Shown here: piece by piece, positions 5,438 through 59,735 of the stretch
Layout: each line of letters starts with the position of its first letter
Numbering within the stretch: the stretch's first letter is position 1
From: Treponema ruminis
Lineage (GTDB): Bacteria > Spirochaetota > Spirochaetia > Treponematales > Treponemataceae
Assembly: GCA_017161305.1 (NCBI GenBank)
Contig: CP031518.1
Span: 2,418,001-2,482,000 of the forward strand
Length of the DNA stretch: 64,000 bases
Direction of reading: 5' to 3'
Program-made: the position numbers and the translations under genes
The notes under the pieces: generated by a model
The model's database searches: none
What the model saw: only the letters and a program-made list of their open reading frames with translations
Told to the model about the DNA's origin: nothing

Positions 5438-5516
5438 AGGGGGAAGTCTCCCCCTGGCTACAAACGCTCTGCGTTTTCCGCCACCCCCTCTACGGGGACA
5501 CCCCGTAACGCCCCCA
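5438..5516 (+). repeat. Hairpin repeat R2 (G/C-rich three-hairpin family)
   Basis: This copy has three hairpins in a row: GGGGGA with TCCCCC, AAACGC with GCGTTT, and TACGGGG with CCCCGTA around an ACA loop. The same order and linkers occur at 8017-8096 (reverse strand), 28157-28232 and 57456-57536. It lies in the 251-base divergent gap between rlmE and rny, upstream of the rny promoter. It is the only intergenic copy not in a gene-end junction. Confidence 0.85.
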
Positions 5517-5591: not shown

Positions 5592-7127
5592 ATGGACAAG
5601 AATTTGATTATGTTCATTGGTCTCCCGGTTGCAGGAATCGTTCTTGGATGGATTATTCGATGGTGTTATGCCAGATTTCAACTATCTGCGTCAGAACAAA
5701 AAGCTGAACGCTTAAGACAGGATGCAATAAAGGAAGCAGAAGCACAGAAAAAAGAAATTTTGCTTGAAGCAAAAGATCAAATCATTCGTGAACGAAAACA
5801 GCAGGAACGGGAAGATCGTGAACGACGCGCTGAGGTTCAGCGATACGAAGCGCGTGTAAGTAAAAAAGAAGAGCTGATTGACAAGCGTGCCGAAGAATTT
5901 GACAAAAAAGAGCTCGAATTCGCAGACCGTGCCAATGCTATGAAAAAACGTGAAGAGCAGCTTCGCACCCAGGAAGAGCAGTACCGCAAGGAATTAGAGC
6001 GGATTTCAGGTCTTTCTGCCCAGGAAGCCAAAGATTTAATAATCAAAAATCTAGAAAACGATGCTCGCCACGACGCACAGGCTCTCTTAAACAAAATTGA
6101 GCAGGATGCCCAGCTTTCAGCCGAAAAGAAAGCTCAGGAAATTCTTATTTCCACAATCCAGCGAATCGCAACAGAAACAACAGGAGATTTAACAGTCACC
6201 ACAGTTTCTTTACCGGGCGATGAAATGAAAGGCCGAATCATCGGTCGTGAGGGCCGCAACATCCGTGCCCTTGAAACACTTACTGGTGTCGACATCATTA
6301 TCGACGACACACCAGAGGCTGTTGTAATCAGCTGCTTTGACCCTGTTCGCAAGGAAATTGCCAAACAGTCACTTGAACGCCTTGTTACGGACGGTCGCAT
6401 CCATCCGGCCCGCATCGAGGAAATCGTTCAAAAGGTCACTCGTGAGATTCAGCAGAAGATTTACGAAGAGGGCGAAAAGGTTCTCTTCGACCTGGGAATC
6501 CACAACATGAGTCAGGACGGAGTCCGGGCTTTGGGAAGGCTCTACTTCCGCACAAGCTACGGTCAGAACGTACTCACTCACTCAAAGGAAGTTGCAGAAA
6601 TCGCTTCTTTGCTTGCAGCCGAAATCGGAGCAAACAAGGAGCTTGCTAAACGTGCTGCCCTTCTCCACGATATCGGTAAGGGAGCGGAAAACGATTCAGA
6701 CCAGAACCACGCAGAGGTTGGTGCTGAAATGGCCCGCAAAATGGGCGAAGACGCAAAAGTCATCAATGCGATTGCCGCACACCACAACGATGTTGAGGCA
6801 ACAACAATTGAGGCTGTCATCGTTCAGATTGCAGACGCAATTTCCGCAGCCCGACCGGGTGCACGCCGCGAGACTGTTGACAACTACGTCAAGCGTCTTG
6901 AGAACCTCGAGGAAACAGCCGAGAAGTTCAACGGTGTTGAAAAGGCCTATGCAATTCAGGCAGGCCGCGAGCTTCGAATCCTCGTTAACAACGAAAAGAT
7001 TCCGGACAACGAAGTCAAAGAGCTTGCACAAAAAATTGCAAAGCAGATCGAAACGGATATCCGCTATCCGGGCCGCATAAAGCTGACAATGATTCGCGAA
7101 ACACGAATTATAGAATACGCTCGCTAA
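5592..7127 (+). CDS. rny: Ribonuclease Y
   Basis: RNase Y is a membrane-anchored endoribonuclease that begins mRNA decay. The 511-residue protein has the expected order: an N-terminal membrane helix (about 5-24), a long Glu/Lys/Arg/Gln-rich coiled coil (about 30-150), a KH RNA-binding domain with GREGRNIRALE (about 210-220), and an HD domain with LTHSKEVA and LLHDIGKG (about 325-360). The C-terminal end PGRIKLTMIRETR is typical. It has its own promoter and is followed by a strong terminator, so it appears monocistronic. Confidence 0.97.
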   Translation: MDKNLIMFIGLPVAGIVLGWIIRWCYARFQLSASEQKAERLRQDAIKEAEAQKKEILLEAKDQIIRERKQQEREDRERRAEVQRYEARVSKKEELIDKRAEEFDKKELEFADRANAMKKREEQLRTQEEQYRKELERISGLSAQEAKDLIIKNLENDARHDAQALLNKIEQDAQLSAEKKAQEILISTIQRIATETTGDLTVTTVSLPGDEMKGRIIGREGRNIRALETLTGVDIIIDDTPEAVVISCFDPVRKEIAKQSLERLVTDGRIHPARIEEIVQKVTREIQQKIYEEGEKVLFDLGIHNMSQDGVRALGRLYFRTSYGQNVLTHSKEVAEIASLLAAEIGANKELAKRAALLHDIGKGAENDSDQNHAEVGAEMARKMGEDAKVINAIAAHHNDVEATTIEAVIVQIADAISAARPGARRETVDNYVKRLENLEETAEKFNGVEKAYAIQAGRELRILVNNEKIPDNEVKELAQKIAKQIETDIRYPGRIKLTMIRETRIIEYAR

Positions 7128-7170: not shown

Positions 7171-7273
7171 CGCACAGTAATCGCTCCTTTACGCGGAAAA
7201 ATCACAGATTTTTCCGAGACTCGCTCAAAACTCACCTTGTGAGTTTTGCCGGCTTTCAGCCGTCGCTCCCTAC
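7171..7273. repeat. Hairpin repeat R6: three TCGCTC linkers each next to a hairpin
   Basis: TCGCTC occurs at 7181, 7221 and 7263, spaced 40 and 42 bases. Between and beside the copies are perfect hairpins: 7194-7216 (CGGAAAAATC with GATTTTTCCG), 7226-7248 (CAAAACTCAC with GTGAGTTTTG) and 7250-7262 (CGGCT with AGCCG). On the reverse strand it aligns with 46253-46320: the linkers TAGGGARCGACGGC, GCCGGCAAAA and TTTTGAGYGAGTCTC are shared, while the stems differ. It fills the junction between the convergent genes rny and lptB, and its edge supplies the lptB stop codon TAG. Confidence 0.8.
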
Positions 7274-8145
7274 ATATGAAATGACTCTCCCAGGTAGATT
7301 TCGCGGGCTACAGGGCTGTCGATGATTTCCTGGCGGGTGCCTTGGATTAAGATCTGGCCGGTGCTTACTATGATTGCACGGTCGGTGATTTCAAGGGTGT
7401 CGCGGACGTTGTGGTCTGTGATTAAAACGCCGATTCCACGGTTTGCCAGAAGTTTTATCATGCCCTTGATGTCGGCTACGGCAATCGGGTCGATTCCGGC
7501 GAAGGGCTCGTCCAGCAAAAGGAATTTCGGCTCAATGGCAAGAGAGCGGGCAATTTCCGTTCTTCGGCGCTCGCCGCCTGAAAGGGTGTAAGCCAGCTGC
7601 TTTCGTATGCGGCCGATTGCGAATTCTTCTATTAATTCTTCAAGTTTTTGTTTTTTTTCGGCCCTGGTTAAGTCCGGACGGGTCTCCAGGATTGACCAGA
7701 TGTTTTCTTCGACAGTCAGTTTTTTGAAAACGCTCGGCTCCTGGGGAAGATAAGAAATTCCCAGCTGAGCCCGCTTGTACATTGGAAGCGGTGTGATTCG
7801 CTTGCTGTCCAAAAAGATTTCACCGGAAGTCGGCTTGTAAAAGCCGACAATCATATAGAAACTTGTCGTTTTTCCGGCTCCGTTTGGTCCAAGCAGGCCC
7901 AAAACCTCACCCGTGTGCATCTGAAAATCAACGCCCTGCACGACCTTTTTTTTGCCGAATGATTTATAAAGAGAACTGACCCGAAGCGTATGGAGCGAAG
8001 AAGAATCATCTGCTGATGGGGGTACGGGGGTGTCCCCTGTAGAGGGGGTAGCGGAAAACGCTTCAGCGTTTGGAGCGAGGGGGCGGCTGCCCCCTTCTGT
8101 ATTCTCACTTTCTAATTCGCCATTTTCAATTTCAATATCGCTCAT
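7270..8145 (-). CDS. lptB: LptB-like ABC transporter ATPase with a repeat-encoded N-terminal insert
   Basis: LptB is the cytoplasmic ATPase that powers lipopolysaccharide transport; in treponemes the cargo may be another lipid-linked molecule. Walker A GPNGAGKTT is near residue 87, followed by the Q-loop, signature LSGGERRR, Walker B FLLLDEP and switch His in ITDHNVRDTL. The domain starts only near residue 52. Residues 17-43 are encoded by repeat R3, so the protein carries a low-complexity leader (about 50 residues) that family members lack. No ATG, GTG or TTG start exists after the repeat. The ATG overlaps the upstream stop as ATGA. The ATPase itself looks intact. Confidence 0.93.
   Translation of the reverse strand: MSDIEIENGELESENTEGGSRPLAPNAEAFSATPSTGDTPVPPSADDSSSLHTLRVSSLYKSFGKKKVVQGVDFQMHTGEVLGLLGPNGAGKTTSFYMIVGFYKPTSGEIFLDSKRITPLPMYKRAQLGISYLPQEPSVFKKLTVEENIWSILETRPDLTRAEKKQKLEELIEEFAIGRIRKQLAYTLSGGERRRTEIARSLAIEPKFLLLDEPFAGIDPIAVADIKGMIKLLANRGIGVLITDHNVRDTLEITDRAIIVSTGQILIQGTRQEIIDSPVAREIYLGESFHM
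8017..8096 (-). repeat. Hairpin repeat R3 inside the lptB coding region
   Basis: Read on the lptB strand, this 80-base copy matches R2 (5438-5516) through all three hairpins, including the GGGGGC/GCCCCC stem, the AAACGCT/AGCGTTT stem and the CCCCCTCTAC linker. It is translated in frame as residues 17-43 of lptB. The last stem has one mismatch compared with the other copies, suggesting some decay. Confidence 0.88.
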
Positions 8146-27239: not shown

Positions 27240-28145
27240 ATGACAGACATAAAACATCTTATGCTCAAACTGAACCAGATTTCTTCCCAGTATTTGGGTA
27301 AAATCATGTATGCCCTTTTTCTAATATCAATTCTTGAAACGATTACCTCCTTTGCAATTCTGTCTCCGGTAATGCGTCTTGCGGCTAATGGAGCAAGTCC
27401 TGCCGTTGTAAAAATACAAACACTACTGTTCGCTTTTCTTGCAATCAGCGTCTGGCTCACTTTTCAGTTCGGTTTCGCCGTAATGCTTTTAAAAATGACC
27501 CGCCGTGAATACACAAACCTGGGCTTTATTTTTATCGGATTCCGCAGGCTCAATCCTGCGGGCAAAATTATCGGTGCTTTTGGTGGTTTAATTGCCATTC
27601 TTGCGCTGATTTCCAGATTCGCCACAAAATTTATTTTCCAAAAAATTAATCCGGATTTTGTCTTTTCGATGCCCGATATTTCTTCGCTTCAAGATGCAGG
27701 TCAAATTGCTGACCAGCCGGAAGTCATATCGACAATGGCAATAGACATGCTTCTTTTTGTCGCAATTTTCCTTGCCGTGCTTTTTATTCTTGGACTTTTC
27801 GTTCTGATTCGCTTTGTTTTCGTGTTCCAGCTTCATTTTGACAATCCGTCGATGAGTATTCCAAAACTTTTCAAAAAAAGCTGGCAAATGATGCACAAAA
27901 ATGTGTTCAAGCTTATTCTTTTTGCGCTCCGGGCAGGCGGAAAGCAGCTTTTCATCGCGATTTTTCTGGCAATTCTAGTTAATTTTATCCCGGAAAGCAA
28001 AAATTCCGGGCTTTCGATTCTCACTTTCATCATCGATATGATTTATTTCATCAATATGTACACCGCGATGATTCGGATTTACCTGACAGTTCCTGTGATG
28101 TACGAAGAAATCAGGAATGAGAAATTAGCAATTAGCAGTGAGTGA
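27240..28145 (+). CDS. Multi-pass membrane protein of unknown function
   Basis: The 301-residue product has about six hydrophobic segments: near 20-45, 62-85, 108-130, 165-195, 228-250 and 262-280. The segment FDNPSMSIPKLFKKSWQMMHKNVFKL is a cytoplasmic amphipathic stretch seen in several families of unknown membrane proteins with repeated halves. It begins 4 bases after the GGDEF gene and is probably co-transcribed with it. I do not recognise a specific function. Confidence 0.8.
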   Translation: MTDIKHLMLKLNQISSQYLGKIMYALFLISILETITSFAILSPVMRLAANGASPAVVKIQTLLFAFLAISVWLTFQFGFAVMLLKMTRREYTNLGFIFIGFRRLNPAGKIIGAFGGLIAILALISRFATKFIFQKINPDFVFSMPDISSLQDAGQIADQPEVISTMAIDMLLFVAIFLAVLFILGLFVLIRFVFVFQLHFDNPSMSIPKLFKKSWQMMHKNVFKLILFALRAGGKQLFIAIFLAILVNFIPESKNSGLSILTFIIDMIYFINMYTAMIRIYLTVPVMYEEIRNEKLAISSE

Positions 28146-28156
28146 TTAGCAATTAT

Positions 28157-28232
28157 AGGGGGAAAGCCTTCCCCTACGCGCCCACTTCGTTGGTCGCTAC
28201 CCCTTCTGCGGGGACACCCCGCAACGCCCCTT
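28157..28232 (+). repeat. Hairpin repeat R4 (G/C-rich three-hairpin family)
   Basis: The order of hairpins is that of R2: an A-GGGG stem with TCCCC, a middle hairpin CCACTTCGTTGG, linker TCGCTACCCC, and TGCGGGG with CCCCGCA around ACA. Compared with R2 the last stem changes A to G on one arm and T to C on the other. It fills the 85-base junction of two convergent genes, and its edge overlaps the stop codon of the gene on the right. Confidence 0.85.
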
Positions 28233-57100: not shown

Positions 57101-58141
57101 TTAGGATTCTACAAATAAAATTTCATTTTCAAGCCGGATGCCTTTTTTTTCAAAGACGATTTTCTTGACCAGATCGGAAAGCTCCCTGATGTCGCTGGCA
57201 CTGGCCTTCTGCTCCGGATTGATGATGAAATTTCCATGCCAGGAAGCAATCTGGGCGCCCCCCACAGAAAAGCCCTTCAAGCCGCACTCGTCAATCACTT
57301 TTCCAGCGATAATTCCATTGGCCGCATCGTTTTTAAATGCAGAACCAGCACTTGGAGAGCGGAAATGGCCTTTTTCCTTGCGGTCGCTCATGCACTTTTC
57401 AGATTTCGAGGCGTCAAAGCCATTGGTGACAGTAAATTTTGCAGAAAGGATAATAAAGGGGGAAAGTCTCCCCCCTCGCTCACACTCCGTTGTTCGCTCC
57501 CCTCTCTGCGGGGAGTACCCCGCAACGCCCCCACCCGGCTGAAAGGGAGATCTTTTATAGCCCCAGTCAGAAGCTGCTTTTTCGTATATACGAATTTTCA
57601 TGTCGTTCAAATCAAGGTAATCCACCGAAATCAGATTGTCGCAGGCACTCAAACCAAAGCAGGTCGCATTCATAAAAAGCGCGCCGCCAACCGTGCCGGA
57701 AAGGCCTGTGAAGGATTCAAATCCGCCCAAATCATTTTTCTTACAGAAAGAAATCACGCTGCCCCATGAGGCACCCGAATCAAGCTCAATGATTTTAGAA
57801 TCATGAAGATTTTCTCCCCCGGTAACACCCTCAGGGCCCGCACTGACATCTGTGAGCGACTTTACTACATTCATCTTCCGGGTAGAAATCACGGCATCAA
57901 GGCCGTCATCGCTAATTATCACATTGGAACCGCCGCCGAGGACAAAAAACTTTATATCATTCTCAATAAAATAGCGCAGGGCAAAAATGAGGCTGTCTGA
58001 ATCAGCAGGCTCAAGAAAGATTTTAGCCGGTCCGCCGACATGCATAGTCGTATGTGAAGCAAGGCTTTCATTTATTTTTACAGCACCAGTAAAATTTCTG
58101 CTGTCATTGAAGAATTGTTCGATTTGTTCTATATTATTCAT
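57101..58141 (-). CDS. murB: UDP-N-acetylenolpyruvoylglucosamine reductase with a repeat-encoded insert
   Basis: MurB reduces UDP-GlcNAc-enolpyruvate to UDP-MurNAc in peptidoglycan synthesis, using FAD. The product has 346 residues from ATG 58141 (MNNIEQIEQ). FAD-binding motifs FFVLGGGSNVIISDDG near 65 and ESFTGLSGTVGGALFMNA near 142 are intact, as is the catalytic Ser in SAGSAFKN near 264. Residues about 201-228 are encoded by repeat R5 and fall between the conserved YKRSPFQ and IILSAKF segments, which in other MurB proteins are only a few residues apart. The frame is kept. It diverges from cysS. Confidence 0.93.
   Translation of the reverse strand: MNNIEQIEQFFNDSRNFTGAVKINESLASHTTMHVGGPAKIFLEPADSDSLIFALRYFIENDIKFFVLGGGSNVIISDDGLDAVISTRKMNVVKSLTDVSAGPEGVTGGENLHDSKIIELDSGASWGSVISFCKKNDLGGFESFTGLSGTVGGALFMNATCFGLSACDNLISVDYLDLNDMKIRIYEKAASDWGYKRSPFQPGGGVAGYSPQRGERTTECERGGRLSPFIILSAKFTVTNGFDASKSEKCMSDRKEKGHFRSPSAGSAFKNDAANGIIAGKVIDECGLKGFSVGGAQIASWHGNFIINPEQKASASDIRELSDLVKKIVFEKKGIRLENEILFVES
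57456..57536 (+). repeat. Hairpin repeat R5 inside the murB coding region
   Basis: This 81-base copy has GGGGGA with TCCCCC, two TCGCTC motifs (57476 and 57494) around a short middle hairpin, and TGCGGGG with CCCCGCA. It is the same family as R2, R3 and R4 in the + orientation. Because murB is on the reverse strand, the element is read in the opposite sense to that in lptB. It encodes about 27 codons without a stop. Confidence 0.88.
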
Positions 58142-58178: not shown

Positions 58179-59735
58179 ATGTCTTTAAGATTATTCAATA
58201 CCATGGGACGCGCGATGCAGGAATTTGAGCCTATTCAGGCTGGTCATGTCGGTTTTTACGGCTGCGGTCCTACGGTTTACAATTATGCTCATATCGGTAA
58301 CCTCCGTGCCTATGTTTTTCTGGACATCCTCGATAAAACTCTCAAATATTTAGGCTACGACATCAAGCATGTAATGAACATCACTGATGTAGGCCACCTT
58401 ACCGGCGACGGCGATGACGGTGACGACAAAATGCTCAAAACTGCCGAAGAAAGACACCAGAGCGTTCTTGAGGTCGCAAAATTCTACACAGATGCCTTCA
58501 TGAAGGACATTGACGCCCTCAACATCCGCCACCCGGACGTAATCTGTAAGGCAACTGAGCACATCAACGAAATGATTGAGCTCATCAAAAAACTTGAGGC
58601 AAACGGCCACACTTACATGGCAGGCGGAAACCTCTACTACGACATCTCAACTTACCCTGATTACGGCAAGCTCGCCAACCTTGACCTGGAAAAACTCGTT
58701 GCAGGCAAAGGCAAGCGCAAGGAAGTCGTAATCGATGAAAACAAGCGCAATCCGGGCGACTTCGTCCTTTGGTTCACAAAATCTAAATTTGAAAATCAGG
58801 CCATGACCTGGGATTCGCCATGGGGACGCGGCTATCCTGGCTGGCACATCGAGTGCTCGGCAATGAGCATGAAATATCTCGGACAGCACATCGACATCCA
58901 CACTGGCGGAATCGACCACGTTCCTGTTCATCACACAAATGAAATCGCACAGAGCGAAGGAAGCTTTACAGAAGAAGAGCGCAAGGCTGGTCCGTGGGTC
59001 AAATATTGGCTCCACAACGAATTCTTGATTCTTGAGGGCGGAAAAATGTCCAAATCAAGCGGACACTTCATCACCTTGCAGACTGACCTGCCGGCAGAAA
59101 AAGGCTATTCCCTCACAAGCAAGGGCTATGCGCCCCTCGACTACCGCTTCTTCCTGCTTGGCGGCCACTATCGAAAACCGCTCGTATTCTCTATTGACGG
59201 AATGGAATCTGCAAAGAACGGCCGGGCAGCCCTGAATGAGCGGGTTGCAAAGCTCGTCAAAAAAGCTGAGGAAAGTGAAAACTTAAAACTGACGATTGAA
59301 AATTACCAGGAAGTCCTCAGCAAGACAGCCTCTTCAATGGAAGAAAGCGAAAATCTGAAAAGATTCAAGGAAGGCCTTGAAAACGACCTGGCCACTCCTG
59401 TCGCTCTTTCTGCCATGCAGAAGGCTTCAAACGGCAAAAACCAGAAGGCAAGCGAGGCTCTGGCAGACATCTTCACAATGGACAAGGTAATTTCGCTTTC
59501 AGTCATTGAAAACGCAATCAAACTTGCCCAGAAACAGGCCGAGGAAGCAAAGGCTGGCACTGATGACCACGCAGGAGATCCTGAAGCAGAGGAAATCACG
59601 GCACTGGTAGCAGAGCGAACAGCAGCCAAAAAGGCAAAGGACTTCGCAAAAGCCGACCAGATCCGAAATGACCTGGCTGCCCGTGGAATCACAATCATCG
59701 ACACTCCACAGGGCCCGACCTGGAAAAGAAACTAA
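58179..59735 (+). CDS. cysS: Cysteinyl-tRNA synthetase
   Basis: CysS charges tRNA-Cys. The product has 518 residues from ATG 58179 ([10 protein letters not shown]), with AAGGAAAC upstream; a longer frame from 57987 lies over murB and is not credible. The HIGH-like motif is in [12 protein letters not shown] near residue 31; the KMSKS motif is in [11 protein letters not shown] near 288. Zinc-binding residues are present in [10 protein letters not shown] and HIECSAMS. The C-terminal anticodon-binding region is present. It diverges from murB, leaving only 37 bases. Confidence 0.96.

Follow-up and report, generated by a model that had tools for sequence, protein, structure and literature searches.

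The window analysed here is a 64,000-nt stretch of the Treponema ruminis genome (contig CP031518.1, positions 2,418,001 to 2,482,000 of the forward strand), in which murB, the gene for UDP-N-acetylmuramate dehydrogenase, carries in frame a short palindromic repeat (Table 1). According to the list of open reading frames, murB starts at the ATG at 58141 and its product has 346 aa; a second in-frame ATG lies at 58204. The product matched the MurB model TIGR00179 with 191.6 bits, above the cut-off of 144.5, and the model NF010480 with 214 bits, below the cut-off of 259. The insert is flanked by the peptide YKRSPFQ on one side and IILSAKF on the other. In the three alignments shown, in which a short-loop Treponema MurB was compared with MurBs of solved structure, the gap at the loop site was of at most one residue, and the loop probably lies at the surface of the enzyme.

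The covariance model R1 was built from 18 other copies of the repeat in the genome, with the murB copy excluded to avoid circularity. It found the murB copy at E = 3.7e-12 genome-wide, in agreement with the claim of an earlier note on this DNA that the MurB segment is a copy of a dispersed hairpin repeat. The note had assigned residues 201-228 to the repeat, close to the 202-229 now found for the insert and to the residues, about 204-228, that are encoded by the element DNA itself, and the further copies which it had placed at 5438, 8017 and 28157 were recovered at nearly the same positions. A weak R1 match in the reverse direction overlapped the insert (16.5 bits, E 0.17) and was taken as chance. 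The murB copy of T. ruminis has a non-standard pair in hairpin 1, and its fold on the coding strand was ordinary, no better than that of shuffled sequences (z -1.13).

Table 1. Genes, translated insert and element copies in the window, with the basis for each.
Feature	Positions	Strand	Basis
murB (UDP-N-acetylmuramate dehydrogenase) with in-frame repeat	57101..58141	-	ORF and family match
Translated insert, MurB residues 202-229, PGGGVAGYSPQRGERTTECERGGRLSPF	57455..57538	-	Loop comparison
Palindromic element in murB, 74 nt, antisense to murB	57458..57531	+	R1 match, 80.4 bits
Element copy upstream of a 511-aa ORF starting at 5592	5438..5514	+	R1, 86.9 bits
Element copy in predicted N-terminal extension of lptB, about residues 18-42	8019..8095	-	R1, 59.5 bits
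lptB, LPS export ABC transporter ATP-binding protein	7270..8145	-	TIGR04406, 360.5 bits (cut-off 240)
Element copy lacking an ORF that extends 45 codons to each side	28158..28230	+	R1, 88.1 bits

Like murB, lptB appears to hold an element copy in frame. From the predicted start codon of the gene, this second in-frame copy of the window would lie in an N-terminal extension, IENGELESENTEGGSRPLAPNAEAFSATPSTGDTPVPP, and the family match TIGR04406 spans residues 54-291, after the repeat-encoded stretch. Four bases at the lptB start are shared with the end of the gene upstream. Elsewhere in the window, a AATTAGCAATTAGCAGTGAG-type (AATTAGC-type) repeat at 28127-28156 directly adjoins the element copy at 28158.

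Architecture, copy number and spread of the element

The element is about 75 nt long, and in the R1 consensus two well-paired hairpins, AGGGGGAAG..CTCCCCCT and GCGGGG..CCCCGC, the latter followed by AACGCCCC, flank a variable middle segment which can itself fold as a third hairpin. Changes on both sides were found in 4 of the 14 pairs of the stems, and several 3' modules or subtypes occur among the copies. In 42 of 53 T. ruminis copies the middle segment has TACC (GGTA on the other strand) next to it, and the unit is a longer, multi-hairpin one compared with the GTAG REP. A simple core pattern of the element had 4 matches in the window vs 0.17 expected from shuffles. The genome-wide search that the earlier note had proposed, run on the 2.9 Mb of T. 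ruminis with 150 of 631 candidates scored, gave at least 59 R1 matches at E<=1, and a sister species (G051), again with 150 candidates scored, gave at least 71 at E<=0.01.

For closer inspection we took 54 of the 59 T. ruminis copies, leaving out the five weakest (E 0.016-0.64), and the best 30 of the 71 copies of G051. For 41 of the 54, an ORF extending 45 codons to each side was absent. The 5' flank of the element is A-rich, and inspection of the 54 flanks, made with no close empty site for comparison, brought out no apparent terminal inverted repeats or target-site duplications. A known RNA family was rejected, as a search of five loci with element copies against 4227 Rfam models gave no match up to E 1.

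The core pattern, with up to two mismatches allowed, was present in 142 of the 196 genomes of the genus, for which a reversed-pattern control gave mostly 0 and at most 5 matches per genome. In a sample of the phylum, divided by hand, it was present in 24 of 29 genomes of the genus and in 11 of 267 others, and Treponema is the genus in which the repeat is chiefly found. One genome of the same order and another family (G439) had seven core-pattern matches and none in the reversed control. The genomes used for comparison are drafts of mixed completeness.

The murB loop in related species

A MurB match was found in 191 of the 196 genus genomes, and the murB locus was read in 140 of these, with both anchor peptides readable in 139. 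As the earlier note had supposed, YKRSPFQ and IILSAKF are normally joined by few residues: a loop of 4 residues was the commonest, seen in 74 of the 124 species that have no clear or suspected element, a count in which the degenerate-looking copy of locus L045 was kept outside both groups. An R1 match lay inside the loop at 13 of the 139 loci and, cut by the contig end, at one further locus (L196), and all 14 copies are antisense to murB. The copy of L040, which belongs to the 13, is truncated and weak (29.6 bits), and that of L210 is interrupted by Ns; the last of these, like L045, was judged by eye. By their coordinates, seven other R1 matches at the loci read (L232, L234, L237, L245, L277, L278 and L296) fall outside the murB loop. 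T. berlinense, T. saccharophilum and T. zioleckii are among the named relatives that were compared, and of these three an R1 match in the murB locus was found in T. berlinense only; the murB element of T. berlinense ATCC BAA-909 is identical to the one in L035.

In a comparison that took in 53 T. ruminis copies, 29 copies of G051 and 13 murB copies, the elements of L023 (T. ruminis), L024, L025, L027, L032 and L033 were mutual nearest relatives, and all six share one reading frame with the peptide GVAG.SPQRGER.T.CERG..L.P. With L196, where the cut copy is of the same sequence type, the number of species comes to seven; the strain-specific insert for which the earlier note had proposed to look is thus rejected in favour of one orthologous insertion common to seven species. 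In seven further species the loop holds another subtype or a truncated copy, and each of the other subtypes (L026, L028, L034, L035, L037 and L235) found its best match among non-murB copies. In neighbouring species the element is absent or other short repeats occupy the loop (L029, L030), and we did not encounter orthologues without the repeat which carry the same loop encoded by unrelated DNA. On a MurB tree made without the loop columns, where L045 was scored as without element, at least 8 presence changes were counted over 44 rows, and the starred branches alone force 2.

Short repeats of the AACCACAGATTACACAGAT, TTGCTAACTGCTCATTGCTCATTGC and GGAAAGTTGAAAACGGAAAG type also seem to be translated in murB loops (L024, L025, L030, L033 and L235) and in carA loops (L391 and L402), and in several cases such repeats adjoin the palindromic element in the same loop. 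A second variable site with repeat-like peptides, for example LCPPKLCE, was seen near residue 113 of MurB (L024, L025, L026 and L040).

Other host proteins

The case of murB could be extended, as at least seven further T. ruminis proteins have the element in their coding sequence. For 13 of the 54 copies examined, an ORF extends at least 45 codons to each side, and nine of the 54 lie in frame inside eight family-supported proteins, namely those of murB, folE2, gltB (glutamate synthase), priA, carA, hsdS, a DUF763 gene and an ABC-F gene which is entered twice. Of these nine copies six are read in the forward and three in the reverse orientation. Of the remaining four of the 13, one precedes a CoaE domain, and the ORFs of the other three matched no family, the scan of one of these being limited to Pfam. 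In G051, ORFs of this kind hold 5 of the 30 best copies, and the hosts are MurB, the C-terminal part of ABC-F, DUF763, a pseudouridine synthase and a protein in which the copy falls between ABC and CobQ domains. Judged by the flanking peptides, the MurB, ABC-F and DUF763 copies of G051 are at the same loops as in T. ruminis. At the ABC-F C-terminal site the two genomes share an unusual 5' part of the element and differ in the 3' hairpin module. The two copies in the ABC-F ATPase of T. ruminis (L319/L323, G000:C1:87744-87820 and 88639-88729) are of opposite orientations, and a repeat-like stretch follows the first.

Four host genes, murB, priA, carA and DUF763, were compared across species, chosen since the T. 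ruminis genome has an insert there. R1 confirmed an element in the loop of priA at 6 of 25 readable loci, in the loop of carA in 7 of 19 genomes and in that of DUF763 in 5 of 22 genomes, the 22 including one more loop with Ns. Loops without element occur in relatives for all four genes, and the elements in the priA, carA and DUF763 loops of related species are of different subtypes. Orientation is uniform in priA (6/6 forward) and among the readable DUF763 copies (5/5 forward), and the inter-domain linker of carA holds reverse copies in L385-L388 and forward copies in L389 and L393. In one carA linker (L403, from G041) a forward and a reverse copy stand side by side in one translated linker, at 2094-2260. 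A broken carA was considered and rejected, as the stops in four matches (G051, G090, G114 and G086) precede the start codon and all four ORFs are uninterrupted.

Reading frame and codon use

All 31 of the N-free loops with an R1 match (murB 13, priA 6, carA 7, DUF763 5) have a length of 0 mod 3 and are stop-free; L210 and L431, which contain runs of N, and L196, which ends with its contig, were left out of this count. In 30 of the 31 loops, L418 being outside this test, 40 of the 60 alternative frames are closed. The frames of the element are themselves open in 199 of 324 cases vs a shuffle mean of 164, so that openness is weaker evidence than it appears, and the 31 loops are not independent because the species are related. 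Since all 31 loops are in frame and stop-free, translation of the insert is far more likely than its removal or bypass, and the insert is probably present in the stable MurB protein.

A 32-base pattern derived from murB and run over 27 genomes of the clade had 17 matches. The 6 matches with 0-1 mismatch are complete murB copies of the shared insertion and have GAG in frame, and all 11 matches with 2-3 mismatches have the form that would read an in-frame TAG. At residues unchanged among the six species with these complete copies, the same codon was used in 299 of 333 comparisons in the insert vs 2212 of 3646 in the flanks, and from the flank rates per residue 182 same-codon comparisons would be expected in the insert vs the 299 observed. 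Because the same-codon share is higher in the insert than in the flanks, the insert DNA has been kept more constant than the surrounding murB gene, and concerted evolution or a constraint on the hairpin may be responsible.

Origin and turnover of the copies

We regard it as highly probable that a gene-less element of about 75 nt has spread in gut Treponema, and that its in-frame copies in turns and linkers are tolerated, translated and turned over. A palindromic element with no gene of its own and with several subtypes would spread through the genomes, and copies landing in frame and free of stops in short turns or inter-domain linkers would be tolerated and thus survive, adding to the protein a translated spacer of about 25 residues. 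As regards murB, the seven species would have inherited a single ancestral insertion, with GAG at the place where related genomic copies would have an in-frame TAG, and loops would be refilled repeatedly, or their occupant overwritten by another subtype. We infer that the spacer is neutral and flexible and that the events took this order. As other subtypes are found in the murB, priA, carA and DUF763 loops, these are taken as permissive sites which have been refilled or in which the occupant has been replaced. Fresh insertion is favoured because carA has two orientations, and replacement is favoured because orientation is uniform in the other three genes and modules are swapped at shared sites.

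It is a serious possibility that each loop received one old insertion, which was then overwritten by genomic copies through gene conversion or template switching, and that fresh insertions had no part. The uniform orientation, kept despite the differences of subtype in murB (14/14), priA (6/6) and DUF763 (5/5), is explained by a single early insertion and subsequent replacement no less well than by repeated insertion, although a constraint on orientation may also give such uniformity. Overwriting would likewise agree with the ABC-F C-terminal site, where T. ruminis and G051 have a common 5' part and different 3' modules, and with the low synonymous change in the insert. It is harder to reconcile with the many sister species that have no element in these loops and with the carA linker, where both orientations occur at one site and a single insertion is saved only by a forward-plus-reverse dimer which was later resolved (compare G041).

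With regard to how the element moves, Y1/RAYT mobilisation was considered and rejected. No R1 match was found in the 11 kb around the two Y1 genes of T. ruminis, and across the genus sample no association was visible, with Y1_Tnp in 7 of the 19 genomes that have at least 12 core matches vs 54 of the 177 others (hand count).

The loops of MurB, PriA, CarA, DUF763 and ABC-F in gut Treponema can tentatively be viewed as cassette sites, at which palindromic elements and other short repeats would be inserted, stacked up, exchanged and lost again without a break in the frame, with hairpin DNA that stays near-constant at synonymous sites. We would not yet lean towards this proposal, and if it is true, bacteria would have in such cassette sites a standing means of rewriting the loops of their enzymes.

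A use for the hairpin or the peptide, be it tuning of translation by an mRNA structure, a functional loop or the like, seems unlikely to us. Synonymous sites in the insert are more conserved than those of the host gene, and the murB insertion persists in seven species, as would be expected of such a use, yet sister species do without the insert or carry another repeat, and the T. ruminis murB copy combines a non-standard pair in hairpin 1 with coding-strand folding that is in no way special. Very improbable, and set aside on the evidence of frame and stops, is the removal of the segment from the mRNA by splicing, or its skipping by the ribosome through bypassing, so that the protein would be made without it. 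GC-rich hairpins with low synonymous change could resemble a signal for bypassing or splicing, but such processes would tolerate frameshifts and stops, while all 31 loops, in four genes and of many subtypes, are clean and the codon that related copies would turn into TAG is GAG in the murB lineage. That the murB segment is an assembly artefact, part of a broken gene or an ordinary hypervariable loop with a chance resemblance to the repeat is hardly credible, for although loop length in MurB varies in other species too, the E of 3.7e-12 came from a model without the murB copy, seven genomes carry the same insertion, and the MurB matches are full-length with open frames.

Relation to known repeats

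In Rickettsia, short palindromic repeats (RPE) were described from intergenic DNA and also, in frame, from within genes for conserved proteins (Ogata et al. 2000, in PMC2229807). As given in the same source, RPEs are 105-146 bp long with terminal inverted repeats, and an RPE-bearing guanylate kinase was reported to be active with a changed affinity for its substrate. The earlier note had offered the RPE as precedent, and this reading is sustained, as the segment matched a genome-wide repeat, most MurBs have a short turn at the site and the frame is kept. Like the RPE, the Treponema element is found between genes as well as in frame within conserved proteins; unlike the RPE, which has one long inverted repeat, it is about 75 nt long with internal tandem hairpins, and its host is gut Treponema instead of Rickettsia, the two being set apart by description and not by sequence. 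The Treponema element behaves like the RPE but is a separate family by host, length and architecture as described. It is a dispersed palindromic repeat which occurs also outside genes, and its in-frame copies lie in conserved proteins and, for the four genes compared, are missing from homologues in relatives, as is characteristic of protein-coding palindromic repeats.

Intragenic GTAG and CGTC REPs are a further parallel. These palindromes were found inside ORFs of several species, with some genes hit twice, and different REPs were noted at about the same recB site in two Xanthomonas species (PMC3733652, section 15). The REPs treated there are 20-40 bp long with a terminal tag, and those of the GTAG type often lie near RAYT genes (PMC3733652). 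The Treponema element resembles them in forming palindromes within ORFs, in hitting a gene twice and in placing different repeats at a common site, and differs in its longer unit and in that no RAYT link was found. Short palindromes in Spirochaetes are not new, because CGTC repeats are listed from this phylum (PMC3733652); the word Treponema is absent from the main text of that article. The Wolbachia palindromic elements (Ogata et al. 2005) are, by the title of the report, protein-coding palindromic repeats, of another host and with sequences not compared here. RU-1, RU-2 and RU-3 are described as small mobile sequences of enterobacteria which carry ORFs and are also intragenic (Delihas 2007, PMC2759123). 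They are like the Treponema element in being small, intragenic and ORF-carrying, and differ in host and in their units of 127, 168 and 103 bp (PMC2759123). No report of protein-embedded palindromic repeats in Treponema was found in the open-licence literature, which is weak evidence of absence.

Protein-embedded repeats are best known from Rickettsia, and the gut spirochaetes add a rich second case, with about 60-70 copies in each of the two genomes counted, loops that are reused, both orientations and several subtypes. With such richness, the ways in which mobile DNA becomes protein sequence can be tested by comparison, and T. berlinense, a cultured and named host, makes the case testable by proteomics.
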